Source: Chromohalobacter sp. 11-W (lineage in GTDB: Bacteria > Pseudomonadota > Gammaproteobacteria > Pseudomonadales > Halomonadaceae). From it: a DNA stretch of 64,000 nt. This document shows, in pieces, positions 33,761 to 46,148 of this stretch (position 1 is the stretch's first letter; every line of letters begins with the position of its first letter). Location: the NCBI RefSeq assembly GCF_029889905.1, contig NZ_JARANZ010000008.1, forward strand, positions 1 through 64,000, read 5' to 3'. The notes under the pieces were generated by a model, which was not told the origin of the DNA, did no database searches, and saw nothing but the letters and a program-made list of their open reading frames with translations. A program made the position numbers and the translations under genes.

Positions 33761-36168
33761 CCGTTCCCCGCACACGCGGGGATGAACCGCCCGAGCTTGG
33801 CCGAGCAATCGCAGAGGCGCTCCGTTCCCCGCACACGCGGGGATGAACCGGCAGATAGAAACATATACTGAAATAATGGCTACCGTTCCCCGCACACGCG
33901 GGGATGAACCGGTTATTGACTACACCATTGACACCCCTGGCCGCCGTTCCCCGCACACGCGGGGATGAACCGCCATGGCGCCCATCCACCGACTGGGCTC
34001 AGGGCCGTTCCCCGCACACGCGGGGATGAACCGCTCATGCCCCCGCTTCATCTGCCACGTCTCGACCGTTCCCCGCACACGCGGGGATGAACCGCTAACC
34101 GCTTATGAACTGGGCCGCAAACGCCCCCGTTCCCCGCACACGCGGGGATGAACCCGCGGCGCTACGAGGGTGCCATGCGTGGGCTGGCCGTTCCCCGCAC
34201 ACGCGGGGATGAACCGGCAACGGCATGCGCTACGACTCTGCAAGATCCCCGTTCCCCGCACACGCGGGGATGAACCGTGCGTAAGCTCGTCCATCAGCAG
34301 GACATGTATCCGTTCCCCGCACACGCGGGGATGAACCGTGAAAGGAGTGCGCATGCCTCAAAACGTCACGCCGTTCCCCGCACACGCGGGGATGAACCGC
34401 CAGCTTGAATGAGCCATCCCACAAGCCACTGCCGTTCCCCGCACACGCGGGGATGAACCGGCGTAATGGATCGCAGCCCGCAAGAATTCCTCCCGTTCCC
34501 CGCACACGCGGGGATGAACCGCCCGAGCTCAAACAGTATGTCGGCGCTACCGCCCGTTCCCCGCACACGCGGGGATGAACCGAATGCTGAAAAGCGTGTT
34601 GAGAATTAGTGCCGCCGTTCCCCGCACACGCGGGGATGAACCGTCGCAGCGTTCGTCACAGCGCGATGTGCCTTGCCGTTCCCCGCACACGCGGGGATGA
34701 ACCGTGCAATCAGGTGAAGCCGGGGCTCCTATCGCGCCGTTCCCCGCACACGCGGGGATGAACCGTTAATCTAAGGAATATCCAGGGAATCCCCCTACCG
34801 TTCCCCGCACACGCGGGGATGAACCGCCGGCACCCCATCCAAGGCACTGACACGCGATCCGTTCCCCGCACACGCGGGGATGAACCGGCCTCGACACCGC
34901 CATTGGCCAATTCCTGCTTCCGTTCCCCGCACACGCGGGGATGAACCGAAAGGGCGCCGCGCGCCCTGGTCTGTGGTGTGCCGTTCCCCGCACACGCGGG
35001 GATGAACCTCCTTATATATTATGCGAACTCTGGGGCTTATCCCGTTCCCCGCACACGCGGGGATGAACCGGCGTAATGGATCGCAGCCCGCAAGAATTCC
35101 TCCCGTTCCCCGCACACGCGGGGATGAACCGCCCGAGCTCAAACAGTATGTCGGCGCTACCGCCCGTTCCCCGCACACGCGGGGATGAACCGAATGCTGA
35201 AAAGCGTGTTGAGAATTAGTGCCGCCGTTCCCCGCACACGCGGGGATGAACCGTCGCAGCGTTCGTCACAGCGCGATGTGCCTTGCCGTTCCCCGCACAC
35301 GCGGGGATGAACCGTGCAATCAGGTGAAGCCGGGGCTCCTATCGCGCCGTTCCCCGCACACGCGGGGATGAACCGTTAATCTAAGGAATATCCAGGGAAT
35401 CCCCCTACCGTTCCCCGCACACGCGGGGATGAACCGCCGGCACCCCATCCAAGGCACTGACACGCGATCCGTTCCCCGCACACGCGGGGATGAACCGGCC
35501 TCGACACCGCCATTGGCCAATTCCTGCTTCCGTTCCCCGCACACGCGGGGATGAACCGAAAGGGCGCCGCGCGCCCTGGTCTGTGGTGTGCCGTTCCCCG
35601 CACACGCGGGGATGAACCTCCTTATATATTATGCGAACTCTGGGGCTTATCCCGTTCCCCGCACACGCGGGGATGAACCGTGTATGGTTGCTGGAAATTC
35701 GGCGGCGTATCCCCGTTCCCCGCACACGCGGGGATGAACCGTCGCCGAAATGATCCTTCCAGCGCTTGCAGGCCCGTTCCCCGCACACGCGGGGATGAAC
35801 CGATTGACCAGGCCCTCGGCACACCGGCTGAACCCCGTTCCCCGCACACGCGGGGATGAACCGCCCTGTCTAGCGTTTCGGTATCTAAAAGCTAGCCGTT
35901 CCCCGCACACGCGGGGATGAACCGCAGATCGAGTTCGCCGATGGCGACGACGGCGTCCGTTCCCCGCACACGCGGGGATGAACCGCAGAAGCTGCTGCAG
36001 GCACTGCAAGCCGTGCACCGTTCCCCGCACACGCGGGGATGAACCGGCCTGGCCATCGTGGCGCGGACTGTCGAGCCCCCGTTCCTCGCAGACGCGGGGA
36101 TGAACCGGGAACGATCAGCGCCCTACGCCGCGTCGTCGACCATTCCCCGCAGGCGCGGGGATGAATCG
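33761..36168 (+). CRISPR. Type I-E CRISPR array 1 (40 repeats, 39 spacers)
   Basis: 29-base repeats, CCGTTCCCCGC then ACAC then GCGGGGATGAACCG, at an exact 61-base period, giving 32-base spacers. The repeat has a 6-bp stem and a 4-base loop and belongs to the type I-E family (compare E. coli GAGTTCCCC...). Leader lies on the left, so crRNAs are read from the plus strand. Spacers 12-21 and 22-31 are the same ten spacers in tandem, so 29 are distinct. The last two repeats (36079 and 36140) are degenerate, as usual at the leader-distal end. A few internal repeats carry a changed last base, such as the one at 34981. Confidence 0.98.
34432..35651 (+). repeat. Tandem duplication of a 610-base, ten-unit block inside array 1
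   Basis: The block 34432-35041 is repeated at 35042-35651. All ten spacers match in order, for example GCGTAATGGATCGCAGCCCG at 34461 and 35071, and the repeat with the terminal change to T (34981) is also copied at 35591. An unequal exchange between repeats explains it. Confidence 0.95.
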
Positions 36169-36320: not shown

Positions 36321-39014
36321 ATGCCGCCAGAAAATGACTCGACTCCGTCTTATCACCGCTACGCGGGCAAGGCGATGCCCGGCCAGCCGGGCGATGCGTG
36401 TCATCTTCTGGCGTGGCACAGCCTGGATGTCGCGGCCGTCGGCTGGCATTTGCTGTCGCCAGAGCGCCCACTGACGCAACAGCTGGCGTTACGGCTCGGC
36501 ATTGAGCCGGAACCGCTGCGGCGACTGCTGGTATTTCTGCTCGGTTTGCATGATCTCGGCAAGTTCTCGCGTGCCTTTCAGGAAGTGCTGAAGTTGACAC
36601 TCGAGGGTATGGCCAAGCCATTGGGTAAGCCTTATCTGGAGCGGCATGATTGGCTGGGTGTCTTGCTGTGGGATGCGTGGTGGCGCCAATGGCGTCGCGA
36701 GGGCGTGCTGCACTGGCCGCCCGATGATCAAACGCCTGCCAGAAAGCTGCTCGAGCCAATGGCTAGCCTGATGGCACCTTTTTTCGGTCACCACGGCCGG
36801 CCGGTCGCGACCGGTCGTTTAAACGTCGAAGCCTTTTACGGCAGCGATGCACAGGTCGATGACGTCACGGCGGCTCGCGATTTCATCGCGGACTGGGCCA
36901 AGGTGGTCGAACCGCATTGGCCGGTCGAACTGCTGCTTGACGAAGAGTGGCTAGACGTTTTCAGGACATTGAGCTGGACCATCGCCGGTTGGGCGACATT
37001 GAGCGATTGGCTGGGCTCCCATCGCGAGTACTTTCCATATTGCGAGCGGGCGATGTCACTGTCCGAATACTGGTCTCGGGCGCTCGGCCAGGCCGAATCG
37101 GTGCTGCAAGCCACCGGCTTTGCCGCGTCCCCCGATCCCGTCCCCTACGAGAGTTTGTCGCAGTGGTTCAGCGCCGACATTACCCCGACGCCATTGCAGC
37201 AGAAGGCGGAGGCGATATCACTCGAGGCGGGGCCGCAGCTGTTCATCCTCGAAGACGTCACTGGCGCGGGGAAGACCGAAGCGGCCTGCATCCTGGCGCA
37301 ACGCCTCCTGGCCGCCGGACATGGCGAAGGGCTCTACTTCGCGTTACCGACCATGGCGACATCGAACGCCATGTATGCCCGCCTGGGGGATCTCCATTAC
37401 CGCTTTTACAGTGCAGAATCGCGTCCGTCTTTCGTGCTGGCGCACGGCGCTCGCCAGTTGAACGAGGATTTCGAGCGTGCCGTCATGGCTGCTCAGCCCG
37501 GTGACAACGATTACGCCGCCATCGACGCCAGCGCCTCGACGCAGTGCAATCGCTGGCTCGCCGACTCCAACAAGAAGGCCCTGTTGGCCGATGTCGGTGT
37601 CGGCACGATTGATCAGGCACTGATGGGGCTTTTGCCGTTTCGGCACCAGTCGCTGCGGCTCCTGGGGCTGGCGCGCAAGGTATTAATCGTCGATGAGGTG
37701 CACGCCTTCGACCATTACATGCAGACACTGCTGCACCAACTGCTTGCACATCACACCCGTCAGGGGGGAAGCGCGATCCTGCTGACCGCGACGCTACCTT
37801 TTGCGATGCGTCAGGCCCTCGTCAACGCCTGGCAGCAAGGACTCGGGTATGAGTCGGCAGCACTGAGCAGTACCGACTATCCGCTGCTGACACATAGCGG
37901 TCAGGGCGCTCATCGCGAGACGCCGCTGGCAACCCGCCCCGAGGTGGTGCGGCGAGTCGAGATTGGCTGGCTGACCCAGGAGGAAGACGCGATCGCCGAG
38001 GTGGCGCGGGGGATCGAAGCGGGTGACTGTATCGTATGGGTGCGCAATACGGTCGATGATGCCATCCGTGCCTGGCAGGCCATTCGTGATATCCACCCCG
38101 ATCCCGAGCGCTGTCTGCTATTCCATGCCCGCTTTGCGATGGTGGACCGACGCCGCATCGAGTCCGATGTGATCGAACGTTTCGGCAAGACGTCGACGCC
38201 TTCGATACGCCGAGGACAGGTGCTGATCACCACCCAGGTTTTTCAGGAGAGCCTCGACTGCGACGCCGACCGAATGATCAGCGACATCGCCCCGGTCGAT
38301 CTGCTAATCCAGCGCGCCGGCCGGTTGCAGCGGCACCAGCGCGGTGAGCGTCAGCCACCGAGGCTTCTGGTGCTGGCACCCGAGTGGGAAGAGTCTCCCA
38401 AGGCGGATTGGCTCAGTCAGGCTCATCGCGGTACGCAGGCGGTGTATCAAGACACCTCGTTGATCTGGCTGACGCAACGCGTGCTGCGGGAACTGGGCGC
38501 CATCGAGATGCCGGGCGCTGCGCGCGAGCTGATCGAACGGGTCTATGCCTGTTCCATCGACGAGATTCCTGAGGCACTGGAGCAGGCTCGTCTGGAACGC
38601 AGTGGCATGAACAAGATGGCGGGATCGATGGCGACGCATAATACGCTCGATCTACAAGAGGGCTATCGACTCAACGAGGATTTCGATCAATGGCAGGAAG
38701 AGCACGATGTGGGCACGCGGCTGAGCGACGAGTCGAGTGTCAACGTGGTGCTGCTCAAGCGTCAGGATGATTCGCTGGTGCTGTGGGCTGAGGGAGAGCG
38801 TCACGCCGATATGCTGAGCCAGTGCCGGCTGCGAGAAAGCCAGGTGAGGAAATTGGCCGAGTTGCCCGAGCGCGATGCCGAAAGTTGGGAGGCCTTGCAG
38901 GAGCGCTACAAGGCGTTGCGTTTTACCCGGCCCTGGCTGCCTGATGAAGATGACGATTGCCGGTACGATAGCCAGTGGGGCGTGAAATTGGCTCGACCCG
39001 AGCAAAAGCGTTGA
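36321..39014 (+). CDS. cas3: Type I-E CRISPR nuclease-helicase Cas3
   Basis: 897 residues. N-terminal HD nuclease: HLLAWHSLDVAAVGWHLL, GLHDLGKFSRAFQ and FGHHGRP supply the metal ligands. The SF2 helicase follows: Walker A DVTGAGKTEAACIL (about residue 320), VLIVDEVHAFDHYM, LLTATLPF, and motif VI LIQRAGRLQRHQRGE. A C-terminal domain completes it. It is recruited by Cascade bound to a target and degrades the DNA. Start at 36321 has GGAG at 6 bases; ATG at 36315 and GTG at 36261 are alternatives. It lies right after array 1 and is separated from the Cascade genes by a toxin-antitoxin pair, so it likely has its own promoter. Confidence 0.95.
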   Translation: MPPENDSTPSYHRYAGKAMPGQPGDACHLLAWHSLDVAAVGWHLLSPERPLTQQLALRLGIEPEPLRRLLVFLLGLHDLGKFSRAFQEVLKLTLEGMAKPLGKPYLERHDWLGVLLWDAWWRQWRREGVLHWPPDDQTPARKLLEPMASLMAPFFGHHGRPVATGRLNVEAFYGSDAQVDDVTAARDFIADWAKVVEPHWPVELLLDEEWLDVFRTLSWTIAGWATLSDWLGSHREYFPYCERAMSLSEYWSRALGQAESVLQATGFAASPDPVPYESLSQWFSADITPTPLQQKAEAISLEAGPQLFILEDVTGAGKTEAACILAQRLLAAGHGEGLYFALPTMATSNAMYARLGDLHYRFYSAESRPSFVLAHGARQLNEDFERAVMAAQPGDNDYAAIDASASTQCNRWLADSNKKALLADVGVGTIDQALMGLLPFRHQSLRLLGLARKVLIVDEVHAFDHYMQTLLHQLLAHHTRQGGSAILLTATLPFAMRQALVNAWQQGLGYESAALSSTDYPLLTHSGQGAHRETPLATRPEVVRRVEIGWLTQEEDAIAEVARGIEAGDCIVWVRNTVDDAIRAWQAIRDIHPDPERCLLFHARFAMVDRRRIESDVIERFGKTSTPSIRRGQVLITTQVFQESLDCDADRMISDIAPVDLLIQRAGRLQRHQRGERQPPRLLVLAPEWEESPKADWLSQAHRGTQAVYQDTSLIWLTQRVLRELGAIEMPGAARELIERVYACSIDEIPEALEQARLERSGMNKMAGSMATHNTLDLQEGYRLNEDFDQWQEEHDVGTRLSDESSVNVVLLKRQDDSLVLWAEGERHADMLSQCRLRESQVRKLAELPERDAESWEALQERYKALRFTRPWLPDEDDDCRYDSQWGVKLARPEQKR

Positions 39015-39092
39015 TTGTTGCGGGTTATGAAACTGGCGGTGATGTGATCTTCGTGCTACATAATAGCTTGGTACGTAGTATGAAGGTGTCAT

Positions 39093-39428
39093 ATGGCAAC
39101 TCCACACAACCCGCCGGCAGCCGTGCGTCGCGCGCTGCGCAAGCTTGGGGCCGACATTCATGATGCGCGACGCCGGCGCCGGCTTACCATGGCCGTCGTT
39201 GCGGAACGCGCTTTTACTTCACGTTCGACCCTGCAGAGAATCGAGGCGGGTGACGCCAGTGTCGGCATCGGTATCTATGCTAGCGTTCTTCAGGCGCTCG
39301 GCCTTCTCGATGGGCTTGCTCACATCGCTGATATCGGCAACGACAGCGTTGGTCAGGCGCTTTCCAGCGCCGAGCTGCCCAAGCGAGTCGGATCGAAACG
39401 CTTACCGAGGTCTTCGCACAATGACTGA
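39093..39428 (+). CDS. HipB-like antitoxin (XRE family)
   Basis: 111 residues with a helix-turn-helix: LGADIHDARRRRRLTMAVVA, ERAFTSRSTLQRIEAGDAS, VGIGIYASVLQALGL. It should bind its own promoter and neutralise the HipA-like kinase, whose start it overlaps by eight bases. It begins 78 bases after cas3. Position inside the cas locus is unusual. Confidence 0.85.
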   Translation: MATPHNPPAAVRRALRKLGADIHDARRRRRLTMAVVAERAFTSRSTLQRIEAGDASVGIGIYASVLQALGLLDGLAHIADIGNDSVGQALSSAELPKRVGSKRLPRSSHND

Positions 39429-40668
39429 GTTCGAAGTATATATCGACCTCAGTGGGAGCACCTTTCCAGTCGGTCTGGCCAGGTGCAATCGCGTGCGCGG
39501 CACGGAGAGGATTCTCTTCGAATACGACGCCGCATGGCTCGAGTCGCCGGATCGCTTCTCACTGGAGCCTGCCCTCGCACTCACGCTGGGGGCCTTCGCT
39601 CCACCTGCAGGGATGACCAGCTTCGGCTCGATTGGCGACTCGGCGCCCGATACTTGGGGGCGCCGTCTCATGCAACGTGCCGAGCGGCGGCGTGCCGCGC
39701 GGGAAGGTCGCAGTGTTCGAACGCTTGCCGAGAGCGATTACCTGCTGGGAGTGGCGGATGAGACCCGGCTTGGTGCTCTGCGTTTTCGCCGAGTGGGCGA
39801 GGCGTCATTTCAGGCGCCGATTCAGGCTGGCGTTCCTGCCCTCGTCGAGCTGGGTCGACTGCTTCAGGTCACGGAGCGTGTCTTGCGTGACGAGGATACG
39901 GATGACGACCTCCAGCTCATCTTTGCCCCGGGCTCGTCCCTGGGTGGGGCCCGCCCGAAAGCCTCGGTCATCGATCAGCACGGCCACCTCTCGATCGCCA
40001 AGTTCCCGAAGGATACCGACGAGTACAGTGTGGAGACCTGGGAAGAAATCGCGCTCCGCTTGGCCAACCAGGCCGGCATCGTAACGCCGCAGCACGAACT
40101 GGTCGACGTGGGCGGTCGGGCCGTCATGCTGTCGAGACGGTTCGATCGAGATGGCACCACCCGCATTCCGTTTCTTTCCGCGATGGCAATGATGGGCGCC
40201 AGGGATGGCGAACCTGGCAGCTACCCCGAGATGGTCGATGCTCTGACCGCGCATGGCGCTCAAGGAAAGACAGACGCGCACGCACTGTATCGGCGCGTCG
40301 TCTTCAGCGTGATGATCTCCAATGTTGACGATCATCTGCGCAATCACGGCTTTCTGTGGTTGGGGAACGCTGGATGGTCACTCGCTCCGGCCTATGACCT
40401 CAACCCGGTTCCCAGTGACCTCAAGGCGCGGGTGTTAACGACGAACATCGATCTCGACGAGAGCACCTGCTCGGTCGATCTTCTGGAGGCAGCGTCCGGC
40501 TATTTTGGGCTCACGCTGGCGAACGCTCGGCGGATCATCAAGGAAGTTGCGCTGGTAACCGCAACTTGGCGGGACACCGCCAAAGCGGTGGGAGCACGCC
40601 CGGCCGAGATCGAGCGTATGGCCAGCGCCTTCGAGCATGATGACTTACAGCGTGGGCTGGCGTTGTGA
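39421..40668 (+). CDS. HipA-like serine/threonine kinase toxin
   Basis: 415 residues. HipA N-terminal domain, then the kinase fold: P-loop-like GSSLGGARPKASV, Lys in LSIAKFPKDTDEYS, catalytic NVDDHLRNHGFLW, and metal-binding APAYDLNPVPSD. All key residues are present, so it should be an active kinase. In the known system HipA phosphorylates glutamyl-tRNA synthetase and causes growth arrest. The start at 39421 overlaps the antitoxin gene; the longer open frame has no support. Length is near that of E. coli HipA (440). It is followed by a terminator. Confidence 0.88.
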   Translation: MTEFEVYIDLSGSTFPVGLARCNRVRGTERILFEYDAAWLESPDRFSLEPALALTLGAFAPPAGMTSFGSIGDSAPDTWGRRLMQRAERRRAAREGRSVRTLAESDYLLGVADETRLGALRFRRVGEASFQAPIQAGVPALVELGRLLQVTERVLRDEDTDDDLQLIFAPGSSLGGARPKASVIDQHGHLSIAKFPKDTDEYSVETWEEIALRLANQAGIVTPQHELVDVGGRAVMLSRRFDRDGTTRIPFLSAMAMMGARDGEPGSYPEMVDALTAHGAQGKTDAHALYRRVVFSVMISNVDDHLRNHGFLWLGNAGWSLAPAYDLNPVPSDLKARVLTTNIDLDESTCSVDLLEAASGYFGLTLANARRIIKEVALVTATWRDTAKAVGARPAEIERMASAFEHDDLQRGLAL

Positions 40669-40766
40669 GACTTCAGATGTTCACTGGCCCCAATAACGGC
40701 CTGGGTAGTTAGGGCACTTCAGACTTTAAGGATGTGAGCCGATAGCAGAGAGAAGAGTATTGAAAC

Positions 40767-40794
40767 GAGGCGCTGCGAATAACAGCGCCTCTTT
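40767..40794 (+). terminator. Terminator after hipBA module
   Basis: Perfect 9-bp stem GAGGCGCTG / CAGCGCCTC with a 7-base loop, followed by TTTATATA, about 100 bases after the HipA stop. On the minus strand it lies just downstream of the mini-CRISPR and could end that transcript too, though the T-run there is weak (GTTTC). Confidence 0.75.
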
Positions 40795-40798
40795 ATAT

Positions 40799-40869
40799 AC
40801 CCCGCTTTTGCGGGGAACGGTCAGCTATCGGAGCCTATAGCGGTTCATCCCTTTTCCTAAAGGGAACGA
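40799..40869 (-). ncRNA. Mini-CRISPR: candidate CreR/CreA-type Cascade-guided regulatory RNA
   Basis: Read on the minus strand. First pseudo-repeat, 40841-40869, has exactly 29 bases: TCGTTCCC, TTTAGGAAAA, GGGATGAACCG. Both ends match the genuine repeat, while the stem is replaced by a different perfect 6-bp stem, CCCTTT / AAAGGG, with a 4-base loop AGGA. A 20-base pseudo-spacer follows (CTATAGGCTCCGATAGCTGA). The second pseudo-repeat, CCGTTCCCCGC AAAA GCGGGGT, keeps the stem and loop size but loses the 3' end. Flanking degenerate repeats around a short spacer are the architecture of CreA and CreR RNAs, which direct Cascade to a promoter by partial pairing. A matching target lies nearby. No clear promoter for this RNA could be picked. 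Confidence 0.75.
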
Positions 40870-40883
40870 CGCAACTATGCCAC

Positions 40884-40929
40884 TGGAGAGGGAAAATGCA
40901 CAGCTCTATAAAATAGGATCTTATAGCTT
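40884..40929 (+). promoter_or_regulatory. Cascade operon promoter with a pseudo-spacer target site
   Basis: TGGAGA, 17 bases, TATAAA(AT) at 40884-40912 is a plausible promoter for the 44-codon ORF and cas8e. On the opposite strand, AAG (40929-40927) is followed by CTATAAGATCCTAT. Against the mini-CRISPR pseudo-spacer this matches at positions 1-5, 7, 9-11, 13 and 14, with mismatches at 6, 8 and 12. AAG is an accepted type I-E PAM, and positions 6 and 12 are not paired in Cascade. Binding would cover the -10 element and the start point. Confidence 0.65.
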
Positions 40930-40987
40930 GCCGTATTCGATTCGATTGGTTACTCTGATACTCGTCATGAGATCGGAGGTGGACGTC

Positions 40988-41122
40988 ATGCGTAACTGGA
41001 TTCGGGATATTTTTTGGGAAGAGGAGCAGTGGGACTGGACGGGAATCATTTTGAAGCTTGCCGGCGGGGCACTCGTTCAGCTTTTCAAGACGCTCCGTTA
41101 TAGACAGAAGGGGGATCAATGA
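40988..41122 (+). CDS. Small 44-residue protein ahead of cas8e
   Basis: 44 residues: MRNWIRDIFWEEEQWDWTG, then an amphipathic or hydrophobic stretch (IILKLAGGALVQLFKTL) and a basic end RYRQKGDQ. It has four Trp. GGAGG lies eight bases before the ATG, and the stop overlaps the cas8e ATG (ATGA), so both are translated from one message. A longer frame from 40877 would start upstream of the proposed -10 box and is unlikely. No family recognised. It could be an accessory of the cas operon, a leader peptide, or a toxin held down by the mini-CRISPR RNA, as in CreTA modules. Confidence 0.65.
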   Translation: MRNWIRDIFWEEEQWDWTGIILKLAGGALVQLFKTLRYRQKGDQ

Positions 41123-42819
41123 ACCTGTTAACAATGTCGTTCCTGCCGTTTCGTCATTTGGGGGGCCATGTTGGCTATCATCCACCCTCGGCGCTCGCTG
41201 ACCCTGACGTTCTTGATCTCGCCCTTCCCCGTGCCGATTTCCAGGGTGCCGCATGGCAGTTTCTGATCGCACTGCTGCAAACGGCGATGACGCCAAAGAA
41301 CACCGATGCCTGGCTGGACCGCTATCAGACGCCACCCAGTGTCGAGGAATTGGAAGCAGCATTGGCGCCATTTTCGAGAGCCTTCGAACTCGACGGCGAG
41401 GGCCCGCGCTTCATGCAGGATCTCGATCCGCTCGAGGACGTCAAGGACGCCCCGGTTGCCGGACTGTTGATCGATTCCCCCGGCGCCAACGGCATCAAGA
41501 ACAATACAGATTTTTTCGTCAAACGCGGTCGGGTCGAAGCCGTATGCCCGGACTGCGCGGCGCTGGCGCTCTATACCATGCAGATCAACGCGCCCGCCGG
41601 CGGCGCCGGCATCCGCGTTGGCCTGCGTGGCGGCGGGCCGCTGACCACGCTGATCCTGCCCGAAGACGAGACCAAAACGCTGTGGGAGCGCCTCTGGCCC
41701 AACGTCATGCCGGCCGATGCCGTGGGTCAGCCGGGACAGACATGGCGCCCGCCCAGGGTCGACGACGCTGACCTGTTTTTCTGGATGACCGACACTCGCG
41801 TCAGCGACAAGAAGGGCACCGAGGTTTTTCCCGATCAGGTCCATCCCCTGCACGCCCTGTGGTCGATGCCGCGCCGCTACCGTTTGCTGTTCGAGGATGA
41901 GTCGGGTTGTTGCGATCTCTGTGGTCGCGAGTGTTCGCGACTAGTGCGTCGGCTGCGTTCGAAAAAGCAGGGAGCCAACTACGATGGCCCCTGGCGTCAT
42001 CCACTGACCCCGTATCGCCGTCTCAATCCCAAGAAAACCGACGAGTTACCACTTTCCAGCAAGGGACAGCCCGGCGGACTGGGTTACCGCCACTGGCCGG
42101 GGCTGGTGCTGGAAGACGAGGCGGGCAGTGGCGCGATGCCAGCGAGAGTCGTGACGCATCATCTGCACAAGTATCACATGGTCGAAGCCGCGCGCGATGA
42201 CGGCGAGGCGTTCGACGCGATGTTTCGGCACGCCCGGCTATGGGTGTTCGGCTACGATATGGACAACATGAAACCTCGTGGCTGGTACAGCGTTGAAATG
42301 CCGCTGATCGGTGTACCCGAAGCGCATCAGGAGATATTGCGCGAATGGGTCAAGCGCTTCGCCGACCTGGCCAGCGATGTCGCCTGGCAGGTGCGTAATC
42401 AGCTCAAACGGGCCTGGTTCAAACGTCCTGAGGATGCCAAGGGCGATATGAGCCAGATCGATGCCCAGTTTTTCGAGGCGACCCAGCTCGCGTTCTTCGA
42501 TGTACTACGCCAGATGAGCGAGACGCTACGCGACGATGGGGATACACCGGCGCTATCCCCAGAGATCCACCGGCAGTGGTACCTGACGCTCAAACGTGAG
42601 GCGCTGAGACTCTTCGATGCCCAGGCCATCAGCGGACCATTGGAAGGCATGAAGATGCAGCAGCTCGAGCGGATCACAAACGCGCGGCGCTATTTGCTGG
42701 ACTATCTGAATGGTAGCGGCAAAAAGATCGGCAAGACGGTTCAGGCATTTGCCCAGGTCGGCGGGTTCGAATTGAAGGCGCCGCAGTCCGAAGGCAATCG
42801 GAAGGGGAACGCAGCATGA
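41119..42819 (+). CDS. cas8e: Type I-E Cascade large subunit Cas8e (Cse1/CasA)
   Basis: 566 residues, somewhat longer than E. coli CasA (502). Recognises the PAM and recruits Cas3. Family signs: TPKNTDAWLDRY, RFMQDLDPLEDVKDAPVAGL, an insertion with CCDLCGREC (possible zinc site) near residue 270, GGPLTTLI, and a C-terminal four-helix bundle. It begins the Cascade operon after the small ORF, with AAGGGGGATCA as RBS, and overlaps cas11 by four bases. Confidence 0.95.
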   Translation: MNLLTMSFLPFRHLGGHVGYHPPSALADPDVLDLALPRADFQGAAWQFLIALLQTAMTPKNTDAWLDRYQTPPSVEELEAALAPFSRAFELDGEGPRFMQDLDPLEDVKDAPVAGLLIDSPGANGIKNNTDFFVKRGRVEAVCPDCAALALYTMQINAPAGGAGIRVGLRGGGPLTTLILPEDETKTLWERLWPNVMPADAVGQPGQTWRPPRVDDADLFFWMTDTRVSDKKGTEVFPDQVHPLHALWSMPRRYRLLFEDESGCCDLCGRECSRLVRRLRSKKQGANYDGPWRHPLTPYRRLNPKKTDELPLSSKGQPGGLGYRHWPGLVLEDEAGSGAMPARVVTHHLHKYHMVEAARDDGEAFDAMFRHARLWVFGYDMDNMKPRGWYSVEMPLIGVPEAHQEILREWVKRFADLASDVAWQVRNQLKRAWFKRPEDAKGDMSQIDAQFFEATQLAFFDVLRQMSETLRDDGDTPALSPEIHRQWYLTLKREALRLFDAQAISGPLEGMKMQQLERITNARRYLLDYLNGSGKKIGKTVQAFAQVGGFELKAPQSEGNRKGNAA

Positions 42820-43508
42820 GTGAGATCGAGCAGGATGCGGTATCCGAAGACGCGAGCGAGGCCGGGAAGAGCGCAGTGGAAAGTCATCTGTATGCGCTGG
42901 ATAACAATGAGGCCTTCGAGCTGCGCTTGTGGTGGCAGCGGCTGGTCATGGACGAACAGGAACTCAAGCGCTACACCAAGCGCCGGCCTTATCCGCGCGG
43001 GGTATGTGCTGCGCTGCGCCGTTGCGATGCCATCGAGTCCGTCATGCTGACGGAGGCTTTTCGCCACCTCTGGCAGGCACTCGAGACGCGAGTCTGGAAA
43101 GAGACGCCTGGCGATGGCCCGAGTAAACAGCGCGATCGGCGTCTCGAAGTCTGGGCGGTGATCGCCGCCATCGTGAGTGAACTGCGCTCTGAGACCTTCG
43201 ATGCCTCCCTGGGTAAGCGGTTGGGCGAAAACCGGCCCAATACCGTCGATACCCCGCGCATGAGCGATCTGCGCTTCCAGCAACTGCTCGACTGCCACAC
43301 GCCTGAAGAGCTGATCCGCCGTTTCAGAAGGGCATTGAAGCTCGCCGACAGCACCGGCGTCAGCGTCGTCCGCCTGGCGGACATTGCCGCGCTCTGGCAT
43401 CGCGAGCAGCGCAGTCAGTATCGCCCTGAGGCGACCGAGCGTTTCGCCTTTGTCATGAGCGACGGCTACTTCAAGGCGCGCTCGCTGAAAGCGGCAGCGA
43501 GCGACTGA
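42816..43508 (+). CDS. cse2: Type I-E Cascade small subunit Cas11 (Cse2/CasB)
   Basis: 230 residues, helical; somewhat longer than the usual 160-200. Cse2 signs: LRLWWQRLVMDEQELKRYT, RGVCAALRRCDAIESVMLTEAF, SDLRFQQLLDCHTPEELIRRFRR (here SDLRFQQLLD and EELIRRFRRAL), and VVRLADIAALWH near the end. Two copies form the belly of Cascade and hold the displaced strand. The N-terminal 25 residues are acidic and probably disordered. Confidence 0.95.
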   Translation: MSEIEQDAVSEDASEAGKSAVESHLYALDNNEAFELRLWWQRLVMDEQELKRYTKRRPYPRGVCAALRRCDAIESVMLTEAFRHLWQALETRVWKETPGDGPSKQRDRRLEVWAVIAAIVSELRSETFDASLGKRLGENRPNTVDTPRMSDLRFQQLLDCHTPEELIRRFRRALKLADSTGVSVVRLADIAALWHREQRSQYRPEATERFAFVMSDGYFKARSLKAAASD

Positions 43509-43567
43509 ACCCTTGACCACGAACGCCATCGGCCACTATCCATCATTACCATTGCAGGGGACCTTTC

Positions 43568-44662
43568 ATGAGCCACTTCATTCAGTTGCATCTACTAACT
43601 TCTTATCCGCCCTCCAACCTCAACCGCGACGATCTGGGTCGTCCCAAGACGGCGTTCATGGGTGGCGCGCGCCGTCTGCGCGTCTCCTCCCAGAGTCTCA
43701 AGCGGAATTGGCGCACCTCTACGCTCTTCGAGGAGGCGGTCGATGGTCACAAGGGCACGCGTACCAAGCGTCTGGGCAAGCAGGTATTCGATCGTATGAG
43801 AGAGGCCGGCGCTGACGAAAAAACCGCTGGTAGCAGTGCGGAGAAGATCGCCGAGGTGTTCGGCAAGCTGCGCAAGGTCGAGAAAGGGCAAAAGCACGAG
43901 TACGAGATCGAGCAGCTGGTCCACGTCGGGCCGGAAGAACTCACTGCGCTGGAGGCGCTGGCGGACACGCTCAGTACCGAAAAGCGCGAACCAACCGATG
44001 ATGAGCTCAAGGACCTGCTCGCACGCCGGCCCACCGCCGTCGATGTGGCGCTGTTCGGACGCATGCTCGCCGCGGCACCGAGCTATAACGTCGAGGCCGC
44101 CTGCCAGGTCGCGCACGCCATTACCGTCCATGCCGCCGAGGTCGAGGATGACTACTTCACTGCGGTCGACGATCTCAATACCGGCGATGAGGATCGTGGC
44201 GCGGCGCATATCGGTGAGGCCGGTTTTGCCGCTGGGCTTTTTTACCTCTACCTCTGCATTGACCGCGATCTGCTGGTCGAGAATCTGCAAGACAATGCGG
44301 ACTTGGCCGATCGCGCCATTGCTGCGCTGGTCGAGTCCGCCGTCAAGGTTTCGCCCAAAGGCAAGCAGAACAGTTTCGGCTCTCGCGCCCACGCCAGCTA
44401 TCTGCTGGTAGAAAAAGGCGATCAGCAGCCGCGCTCGTTGTCGGCCTCCTTCCTGCAGCCGGTCAATGGTGAAGGACAAGCGATCAAGGCCATCAGCAAA
44501 CTGGAACGCCAGGCTCAGGCCTTCGATGATGCTTATGGTGCCGGCGCCGACAGTCGCTTTGTTCTCTCTGCCGAGCCCGATTATGAAAAGCCTGCGCTGA
44601 AGGGTGACGTCCAAACGGGAAATCTGCAGGATCTGCTGACCTTCCTCAAAGGCGATGACTAA
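43568..44662 (+). CDS. cas7e: Type I-E Cascade backbone Cas7e (Cse4/CasC)
   Basis: 364 residues, as is usual for the family. Six copies line the crRNA. The start MSHFIQLHLLTSYPPSNLNRD, cited here only as its first ten (MSHFIQLHLL) plus SYPPSNLNRD, and GGARRLRVSSQSLKRNWR are hallmark Cas7e motifs. A thumb-like insertion lies near residues 85-165. RBS AGGGGACCTTTC. A 59-base gap separates it from cas11. Confidence 0.96.
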   Translation: MSHFIQLHLLTSYPPSNLNRDDLGRPKTAFMGGARRLRVSSQSLKRNWRTSTLFEEAVDGHKGTRTKRLGKQVFDRMREAGADEKTAGSSAEKIAEVFGKLRKVEKGQKHEYEIEQLVHVGPEELTALEALADTLSTEKREPTDDELKDLLARRPTAVDVALFGRMLAAAPSYNVEAACQVAHAITVHAAEVEDDYFTAVDDLNTGDEDRGAAHIGEAGFAAGLFYLYLCIDRDLLVENLQDNADLADRAIAALVESAVKVSPKGKQNSFGSRAHASYLLVEKGDQQPRSLSASFLQPVNGEGQAIKAISKLERQAQAFDDAYGAGADSRFVLSAEPDYEKPALKGDVQTGNLQDLLTFLKGDD

Positions 44663-44673
44663 GCGGAGGCGAT

Positions 44674-45456
44674 ATGACGGAACATCTGGTCTTTCGCCTC
44701 TATGCGTCGATGGCGAGCTGGGGCGAAGCTGCGGTAGGGGAGGCGCGGCCGACCGCGACGTATCCCGGGCGCGGCGCCATCCTCGGCTTGATCGGCGCGG
44801 CACTAGGCATCCGGCGCGACGATGACGAGGGGCAACTAAGGCTTCGGCAAAGCCTGGGCGTCGCAGTCAAACAGCGCTCTCCAGGCTGGCTGCTACGCGA
44901 CTACCACACCGTTCAGGTGCCGCCTTCACAATCGAAGGTGAACTACCGTTCGCGGCGTGAAGAACTTTCGGTGCCCAAGGATGCCCTCAATACCATTCTC
45001 TCGTCCCGGGACTATCGCTGTGATGGCCTGTGGGTCGTGGCGCTGCGTCTGATGCCCGACGCGGTCTGGACACTGGACGAACTCAAGAGCGCGCTGGAGA
45101 GGCCTCGCTTCACGCTCTATCTCGGCCGTAAGGCATGCCCCCTGGCGGCACCGCTCACGCCCGCCATCGTGGAGGCGGATCACTGGCGCGGGGCGCTGGA
45201 TCACGGCTTTGACAGCGCAACCGATCCCGAAAAGACATGGTTGCCGCTCATCGGTAACGAAGCACGGGACCTACGCTTGCTGAGGCTGCCCGATCAGGTG
45301 CTCTATGCCTGGGAAGGCGGCGCCGAGTGCCTCGACGGTGAGGATCACGGCGTGGAGTCCAACGATGTCTGGGATCAACCGCTGAACCGGCGCCGCTGGC
45401 AGTTCGGGGCGCGTCTCGAGCACCGCCGAATCGAGTCGGTGGAGGGGCAGAGCTAA
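44674..45456 (+). CDS. cas5e: Type I-E Cascade subunit Cas5e (CasD)
   Basis: 260 residues. Holds the 5' handle of the crRNA. Motifs: LVFRLYASMASWGEAAVGEA (family LxxPMxxWG region), RPTATYPGRGAILGLIGAAL, VKQRSPGWLLRDYHTVQVP and FTLYLGRKACPLAAPL. The last base of its stop codon is the first base of the cas6e ATG. Confidence 0.95.
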   Translation: MTEHLVFRLYASMASWGEAAVGEARPTATYPGRGAILGLIGAALGIRRDDDEGQLRLRQSLGVAVKQRSPGWLLRDYHTVQVPPSQSKVNYRSRREELSVPKDALNTILSSRDYRCDGLWVVALRLMPDAVWTLDELKSALERPRFTLYLGRKACPLAAPLTPAIVEADHWRGALDHGFDSATDPEKTWLPLIGNEARDLRLLRLPDQVLYAWEGGAECLDGEDHGVESNDVWDQPLNRRRWQFGARLEHRRIESVEGQS

Positions 45457-46148
45457 TGTATCTTTCAAGTGTCAGAGTCGACCTCAACGCCCTTACCCGA
45501 GAACAGCTTTTCGATGTGCTGGAAGGCGGGGCCTATACGGCCCACCAACTGCTCTGGACGCTGTTTGCCGATACGTCAGAGGGCGAACGACCCTTTCTCT
45601 TCCGCCAGGAAATGGAGGAAGCGGCCAATGGAAAAAGTCAGGGACTGCCGCGGTTTTATGTCTATTCGACTCGTCGACCGGAAGCCGTGGCCGGTCTCGA
45701 TGTGCAATGTAAGCCTTTCGCACCGCAACTCGCCAAAGGCGAGCGCCTCGCTTTTCGCCTGCGTGCTAACCCCTCCATTGCCAAACCGATGGGCCAGGGC
45801 CGCCGTTCTAAGCGCGCCGACGTGCTGATGGATGCGCGTTATCCCTTCCCAAAAGGAGAGCGGACGAGCCAGGCATGTACCGAGGCGATGGATGCTGCCG
45901 CACGCCAGTGGCTTACTGATCGGGCGGACGCCTTTGGCTTTACGCTGCCCGTCGCGCCGGAGGTAGGCGCTTACCGTCAGTATGCGCTGAGCAAAAAAGG
46001 GGGCGGGGATCCCATCCGCTACTCCAGCGTGGATTACGAAGGTCTGCTGGAAGTGACGGACCCGGGGCGCCTGATCGAAACGCTAGCGCATGGTGTCGGG
46101 CGGGCTAAAGCTTTCGGCTGCGGCCTGATGATGTTGCGTCGGCCATAG
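45456..46148 (+). CDS. cas6e: CRISPR RNA endonuclease Cas6e (Cse3/CasE)
   Basis: 230 residues. Cuts pre-crRNA at the base of the repeat hairpin and stays bound. The catalytic region GGAYTAHQLLWTLFAD holds the expected Tyr and His, and the Gly-rich loop GVGRAKAFGCGLMMLRR is at the C-terminus. It is the only Cas6 in the window, so it must process arrays with at least three stem sequences and, if expressed, the mini-CRISPR. Confidence 0.95.
   Translation: MYLSSVRVDLNALTREQLFDVLEGGAYTAHQLLWTLFADTSEGERPFLFRQEMEEAANGKSQGLPRFYVYSTRRPEAVAGLDVQCKPFAPQLAKGERLAFRLRANPSIAKPMGQGRRSKRADVLMDARYPFPKGERTSQACTEAMDAAARQWLTDRADAFGFTLPVAPEVGAYRQYALSKKGGGDPIRYSSVDYEGLLEVTDPGRLIETLAHGVGRAKAFGCGLMMLRRP

Follow-up and report, generated by a model that had tools for sequence, protein, structure and literature searches.

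CreRs (cas-regulating RNAs) mediate autorepression in CRISPR-Cas types I-B, I-E and V-A, according to the accessible text of PMC13131331, which cites Liu et al. (2023, Cell Host Microbe 31:1481). They are crRNA-like RNAs carrying a guide with partial complementarity to their own cas-operon promoter, as described in the available portions of PMC13131331 and PMC12737573, and are usually not accompanied by a toxin gene (PMC12737573, in its available portion). The mini-CRISPR described here resembles them in both its guide and its target. It differs in that the targeted promoter first drives a conserved micro-ORF, a 44-aa gene between promoter and cas8e of a kind that we find solely in regions carrying a CreR.

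The CreA RNAs of CreTA, as far as the accessible parts of PMC8501985 and PMC9458426 describe them, have two divergent psi-repeats, an 8-nt handle and a PAM within the targeted promoter, and they pair through seed positions 1-5 and 7-11 while positions 6 and 12 are free. The present element shares this design. CreTA is a type VIII toxin-antitoxin system, and its two studied CreT toxins are RNAs that act via rare codons (same portions of PMC8501985 and PMC9458426), whereas the promoter here leads to a peptide gene conserved in its amino acids, and then to the cas genes. In CrePA, Cascade and a crRNA-like guide repress a promoter that precedes a protein gene (PMC12737573, available portion; Shu et al. 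2025), an arrangement similar to the one proposed here. However, CreP typically carries a KilA-N domain, while the product at this locus has 44 aa and no domain match, and is encoded inside the cascade operon. Racrs likewise involve a repeat-like RNA outside an array, but these are solitary repeat units in viral genomes that serve as decoys (PMC10651486, accessible text). Furthermore, in a type I-B archaeon shortened spacers repress, with interference and primed adaptation lost (PMC10989794, accessible text). A coupling of CreRs to dedicated micro-ORFs was not found in the CreR, CreTA and CrePA literature searched, a scope that most subscription papers fall outside, and a poorly discriminating search for small ORFs before cas8e yielded no relevant paper other than PMC8501985, on CreTA.

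The mini-CRISPR and its target

The window, by which we mean the whole analysed stretch of 64,000 nt from Chromohalobacter sp. 11-W, holds a complete type I-E CRISPR-Cas locus as judged by Pfam hits, in the order array 1, cas3, an inserted hipBA pair, cas8e, cse2, cas7, cas5, cas6e, cas1, cas2 and array 2. The first Cascade gene, cas8e (Cse1), lies at 41119..42819 on the plus strand (Pfam PF09481, E 1.2e-107), and is followed on the same strand by cse2 (cas11), cas7, cas5 and cas6e at 42816..46148 (Pfam). By Cas8e, the best named relative is C. israelensis at 97% identity, in a list from which very close records may be missing. Between hipA and cas8e, the minus strand at 40869-40800 carries two degenerate type I-E repeats around a 20-nt pseudo-spacer, and an intrinsic-terminator-like hairpin (40767..40791, plus strand) stands between hipA and this region.

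The first of the two repeats, psi-R1 (40841..40869, minus strand), is exactly 29 nt long, with a 6-bp stem CCCTTT/AAAGGG and a 4-nt loop AGGA, and supplies the 8-nt 5' handle ATGAACCG (40848-40841, minus strand). The pseudo-spacer CTATAGGCTCCGATAGCTGA (40821..40840, minus strand) falls 12 nt, the length of two 6-nt Cascade segments, below a 32-nt spacer. The second repeat, psi-R2 (40800..40820, minus strand), retains the canonical stem CCCCGC/GCGGGG with an AAAA loop and has lost its 3' end, in place of which stands TATATAAA. The sequence-only reading that drew attention to the element had described the pair of minus-strand hairpins flanking the pseudo-spacer, the changed yet still paired stem of psi-R1 and the truncation of psi-R2 in just these terms; re-reading of the coordinates agrees with it on these points, and both hairpins fold. 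R1 does so at -9.5 kcal/mol, with 13 of 200 shuffles equally good, and R2 at -12.3 kcal/mol, with one of 200. Outside the two arrays, three intact ATGAACCG or ATAAACCG handles occur in the window, that of the CreR being the sole one with a 6/6 stem.

Comparison with relatives bears on whether these stems are maintained. Across 30 loci, pairing in the R1 stem is kept in 151 of 180 pairs though the sequence varies, compared with 126 on average and 140 at most over 2000 shuffles, which ignore relatedness, and with 86-115 when the stem is slid by 1-2 nt. Each of the six pairs of the R2 stem forms in 29 or 30 of the 30 loci. Such conservation is consistent with selection acting on both ends for cleavage by Cas6e, in line with the earlier suggestion that the altered R1 stem had been held in pairing by selection. 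A Cas6e cut that yields the 8-nt handle presumably falls between 40849 and 40848, going by type I-E biology, and not after 40841 as first proposed. Upstream of R1 by 4 nt, CATAGT (40874..40879, minus strand) was picked by eye as a candidate -10 of the CreR promoter; it gave no consensus match in a promoter scan, and L006 and L051 show TATAAT at about the equivalent place in an alignment by eye.

The pseudo-spacer matches 11 of the first 14 positions of a site at 40907..40926 on the minus strand (matches at 1-5, 7, 9-11, 13 and 14; mismatches at 6, 8 and 12), about 80 nt from the CreR and ahead of the cascade genes; an AAG PAM adjoins it at 40927..40929. This is the site that the sequence-only reading had pointed out, and it reads as reported. 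In the 3.66-Mb genome it is the unique site with at most one mismatch to the AAG-flanked pattern of 15 specified letters; allowing two mismatches adds three sites, including the CreR itself, and a reversed control pattern also gives three. None of 20,000 shuffles of the pseudo-spacer reached the real score against its own promoter.

We place the inferred promoter of the cascade operon at 40928..40956 on the plus strand, with a -35 hexamer TTGCCG (40928-40933), a spacing of 17 nt and a -10 hexamer TACTCT (40951-40956), such that CTT, the complement of the PAM, overlaps the -35. A strict sigma-70 consensus scan gave no promoter at 40928-40956; the placement comes from 29 loci listed with the PAM as anchor and read by eye. 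CTTG stands at the PAM in nine of these 29, eight of the nine being among the 12 listed loci that carry the 44-aa ORF, and L015 provides an example with CTTGACG, 17 nt and TAGCTT. As such, the target probably abuts the -35 element rather than covering the -10 box, where the sequence-only reading had located it. The geometry is not the same everywhere: in L011 and L003, which carry a second micro-ORF family discussed below, the target lies by eye just after a TTGACA-type promoter, and in L028, L032 and L126 it adjoins the ribosome-binding site of cas8e. The pseudo-spacer also has a further partial match (10/12, flanked by CTG), on the minus strand within 40668-40799, downstream of the CreR and between it and hipA, which is perhaps due to chance or a remnant.

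Taken as a whole, this element is very probably the CreR gene of this type I-E system, and thereby a further case of a known class in which type I-E is already included. It consists of two repeat-like sequences around a pseudo-spacer, within the cas locus and outside the arrays, and it has limited complementarity, next to a correct PAM, to its own inferred cas promoter.

Guides and promoters in relatives

In order to see how often such an arrangement occurs, 136 regions upstream of cas8e were collected, of which 95 were distinct after collapsing. They derive from 80 named genomes (the best 80 of 349 matching relatives), from 30 loci in the 58 family genomes (of 275) that gave a match, and from 26 further regions retrieved by coordinates, which brought the coverage to 56 of the 58 genomes; G096 and G157, poor partial matches, are outside the set. 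A strict rule demanded the handle ATGAACCG or ATAAACCG (one change tolerated), an AAG PAM, and at least 10 matches at 12 scored positions, namely 1-14 minus 6 and 12. Under this rule 27 of 172 handle sites in the 95 regions carry a target, against 0 of 860 shuffled guides and 5 of 1518 permuted handles. All 27 handles are on the strand opposite cas8e, 26 of the targets are on the CreR strand (the exception being L063), and the distance from handle to target ranges from 74 to 121 nt. Eight looser loci, three having AAA as PAM and five a worn handle, raise the count to 35 of the 95 regions; their inclusion followed inspection, and it was the presence of a micro-ORF that first drew attention to L029, L031 and L078. 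A handle-free scan, which looks for an R2-like hairpin together with a target, recovers 32 of the 35 CreR regions and picks up none of the other 60 and none of 95 reversed controls. Searching the 275 family genomes for the mini-CRISPR pattern gave seven matches, six just upstream of cas8e and one, inside an array, that is a chance match. For CreRs with worn repeats, we suggest searching for guide-promoter pairs and not for intact repeats.

No CreR was found in 60 of the 95 regions, including that of the near relative L002, whose Cas8e is 97% identical, and the CreR is therefore dispensable. In a blastn comparison of L002 with the window, 40667-41174 does not align; the guide, the promoter and the ORF thus behave as a single cassette.

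Lineages differ widely in their guides, each of which fits its own promoter. In a swap test over 15 loci, some of them near-identical, the guide scores 10-12 of 12 against its own promoter in 14 and 3-9 when families are swapped; the fifteenth, L035, scores 5 with AAG and has an 11/12 site behind an AAA PAM. Of 20,000 shuffles, none reaches the own score in ten of the 14 loci, and 2-9 do so in the other four. One family comprises five related guides in which letters change from locus to locus; all of them still match at positions 1, 4 and 10, and four at position 9, with position 6 matched by none and position 12 by one. Independent drift of pseudo-spacer and promoter among relatives had been set as a refutation of the sequence-only reading; what we see is the opposite, guides and promoters that co-vary.

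The same five guides hint at a pattern that is clearer in the full set. Over the 35 loci, matches at positions 1 to 14 number 34, 35, 35, 35, 35, 10, 35, 31, 27, 34, 35, 8, 29 and 22, and positions 6 and 12 thus have 10 and 8 against 22-35 elsewhere, the high values being partly selected since targets were picked for high match counts, partly ignoring 6 and 12. When all 14 positions are weighted alike the dips stay, with 9 of 30 at position 6 and 7 of 30 at position 12. Moreover, position 18, which was unused in target choice, matches in 7 of 30 loci versus 20 of 30 and 16 of 30 for its neighbours. (L063 is outside these 30-locus counts and inside the 35-locus counts.) As read from aligned sequences, this concentration of mismatches at 6 and 12 is what marks pairing by Cascade, and the CreA mutagenesis cited below agrees with it; the earlier remark was that both positions are unpaired in type I-E complexes. 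Such loci amount to many natural replicates of a CRISPR complex fitted to its own promoter, from which the pairing rules of Cascade may be read from evolution alone.

Micro-ORFs and the proposed circuit

The first gene after the CreR-targeted promoter is a micro-ORF of 44 aa (40988..41122, plus strand), preceded by the Shine-Dalgarno sequence GGAGG and overlapping cas8e by 4 nt (ATGA). We refer to its product as the 'WDW' peptide, and the family in relatives has the motif M-R-x-W...W-D/N-W..I. A profile search of the 275 family genomes found the ORF in 12, directly upstream of cas8e in 11, all of which have a CreR; the twelfth match is weak (E 0.0072). Among 390 genomes of the order, it was found in the window and at one Alcanivorax locus (L040), the other two matches lying inside frames of 575 and 454 codons. 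In each of nine pairs, computed over the first 35 codons for sequences sharing at least 60% identity, dN is below dS; L082-L087 has dN 0.165 and dS 2.15, and in L021-L137 the two are nearly equal. That dN is lower than dS argues for a protein product. The peptide has a hydrophobic half and a basic tail, and an AlphaFold model predicts helices at 3-13 and 17-42 (mean pLDDT 75, pTM 0.33). Neither Pfam (above cut-off) nor NCBIfam gave a match to it, and a tblastn search with the related L023 peptide against phage and plasmid records gave nothing at E up to 1. In L022/G231 the ORF is interrupted by a stop codon.

A second, unrelated family of basic micro-ORFs (MIFRRYRRTKNG...) is present in six of the 275 family genomes, and in all six it lies directly upstream of cas8e. 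In the 95 regions the 44-aa family counts 13 members and the second family 10, together occupying 23 of the 35 CreR regions and none of the 60 others; with the strict CreR set only, the figures are 19 of 27 versus 4 of 68. Neither family occurs in 12 of the 35 CreR regions, some of which carry other small ORFs. In L144, L057, L061, L063 and L076 other unrelated small ORFs, some strongly hydrophobic, extend between the CreR-targeted promoter and cas8e. The leaders that follow the target may also be shared: L011, L014, L033, L037 and L003 have a similar one, GCGGCGAC...TCACCGA, before the second-family ORF and within about 330 nt of cas8e, and L067 and L078 have a different leader in common, GAGGCAGCTT. 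The second-family leader looks like a structured RNA, judging by its sequence; Rfam gave no match for two loci with this leader, L132 and L121.

How, then, might the CreR act on this operon? Cas6e would cut the minus-strand RNA within psi-R1 and psi-R2, releasing a 49-nt crRNA-like RNA (40848-40800) with a 20-nt guide and the psi-R2 stem-loop as its 3' handle. Cascade loaded with this CreR would read the AAG and seed-pair at positions 1-5, 7, 9-11 and 13-14 just upstream of the -35, and its presence at the cascade-operon promoter would block RNA polymerase, lowering cas expression. Pairing that is both short and partial would permit binding without licensing Cas3. Because ordinary crRNAs would compete for Cascade, the promoter would open when free Cascade is scarce, inhibited or lost, and this opening would raise Cascade and the co-transcribed 44-aa peptide together.

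Whether repression at this promoter is tight can be judged in part from the seed. In the CreA of H. hubeiense any single change in positions 1-5 or 7-11 abolished function, while positions 6 and 12 were not needed (PMC8501985, in the accessible text). The window has a seed mismatch at guide position 8, and 13 of the 35 loci have at least one mismatch within 1-5 or 7-11, so that repression may be weak. Furthermore, the seed is perfect in 5 of the 13 loci with the 44-aa peptide versus 17 of the 22 others (Fisher p 0.03), and the second micro-ORF family has a perfect core in 8 of its 10 loci. For the window and the other loci with the 44-aa peptide, this suggests a tuned, leaky repression.

These numbers matter for the alternative that survives best, in which the guide is a CreA-type antitoxin and the 44-aa peptide a toxin freed on loss or inhibition of Cascade, amounting to addiction or abortive infection in the manner of CreTA or CrePA. 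It would agree with the confinement of two unrelated micro-ORF families to CreR regions (23/35 vs 0/60), with their adjacency to cas8e in 11 of 12 and 6 of 6 cases, and with a peptide that is conserved as a protein, hydrophobic in one half, basic in its tail and predicted to form a long helix (17-42). However, 12 CreR regions lack both families, the L022/G231 ORF contains a stop codon, the peptide has no match in Pfam above cut-off or in NCBIfam, and the seed is less often perfect precisely where the 44-aa peptide is encoded. For the 44-aa family, imperfect seeds speak more for autoregulation than for a toxin under tight control, whereas the second family looks tighter. We consider the toxin reading possible, but on balance doubtful.

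Returning to the autorepressing CreR, we tentatively extend it to a cassette of CreR, promoter and micro-ORF in which Cascade might hold down both itself and a small dedicated peptide, possibly membrane-active, encoded at the head of its own operon, a proposal that we hold to be conceivable and not yet probable. If it is true, inhibition of Cascade would free Cascade and the peptide effector together, the autorepression of CreR and the fail-safe of CreTA and CrePA would be joined in a single promoter, and at least two unrelated peptide families would have been recruited into one slot. With micro-ORFs limited to CreR regions, a peptide fail-safe against anti-CRISPRs becomes testable.

Weaker readings and the surrounding locus

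Having just two repeats, both degenerate, the element could be taken for a dying leftover of a CRISPR array whose promoter match is accidental. This we judge highly improbable, as 35 of 95 regions match their own promoter with differing guides, the nulls are near zero, the letters co-vary, and all 27 strict matches keep a spacing of 74-121 nt. Equally hard to credit is an RNA anti-CRISPR of the phage type (Racr), in which a repeat acts as a decoy and sequesters Cas proteins: both mimic a repeat in RNA, but here there are two repeats and a co-evolving guide, inside a cas locus.

A role of the guide for hipBA, the toxin-antitoxin pair immediately upstream, has next to no likelihood, as the best match upstream of hipB is 7/12 without AAG, and as hipBA was found, among the flanks of about 5 kb in 80 named relatives, in L002 alone, which has no CreR. 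The hipBA neighbourhood, part of the picture in the sequence-only reading, is thus incidental, being near cas8e in one of the 80 named relatives. The pair itself occupies 39093-40668, between cas3 and cas8e; L002 has a 97-98% identical pair at the same position, and the other 79 of the 80 relatives checked have none in their flanks of about 5 kb.

Further candidates were tried and rejected. Against hipBA, cas3 and the array leaders the guide reaches at best 7-8 of 12, and none of the two best matches per region has AAG. A known structured RNA was sought with Rfam at E up to 1, in the regions of five relatives and in 38900-41400 of the window, and no match was returned. An ordinary CRISPR array does not agree with a 20-nt pseudo-spacer, where the 102 array spacers extracted have 32-33 nt, nor with an R1 stem unlike that of either array.

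As for the arrays themselves, their repeats differ, with GTTCCCCGCACACGCGGGGATGAACC present in 38 exact copies and GTTCCCCACGCCCGTGGGGATGAACC in 67, and the stem of the CreR R2 is the same as that of the array 1 repeat. Array 1 contains an internal duplication at an offset of 610 bp, 34432-34731 being identical to 35042-35341 (region 34432-35341). Its 37 spacers comprise 27 distinct ones, ten of which are present at least twice.
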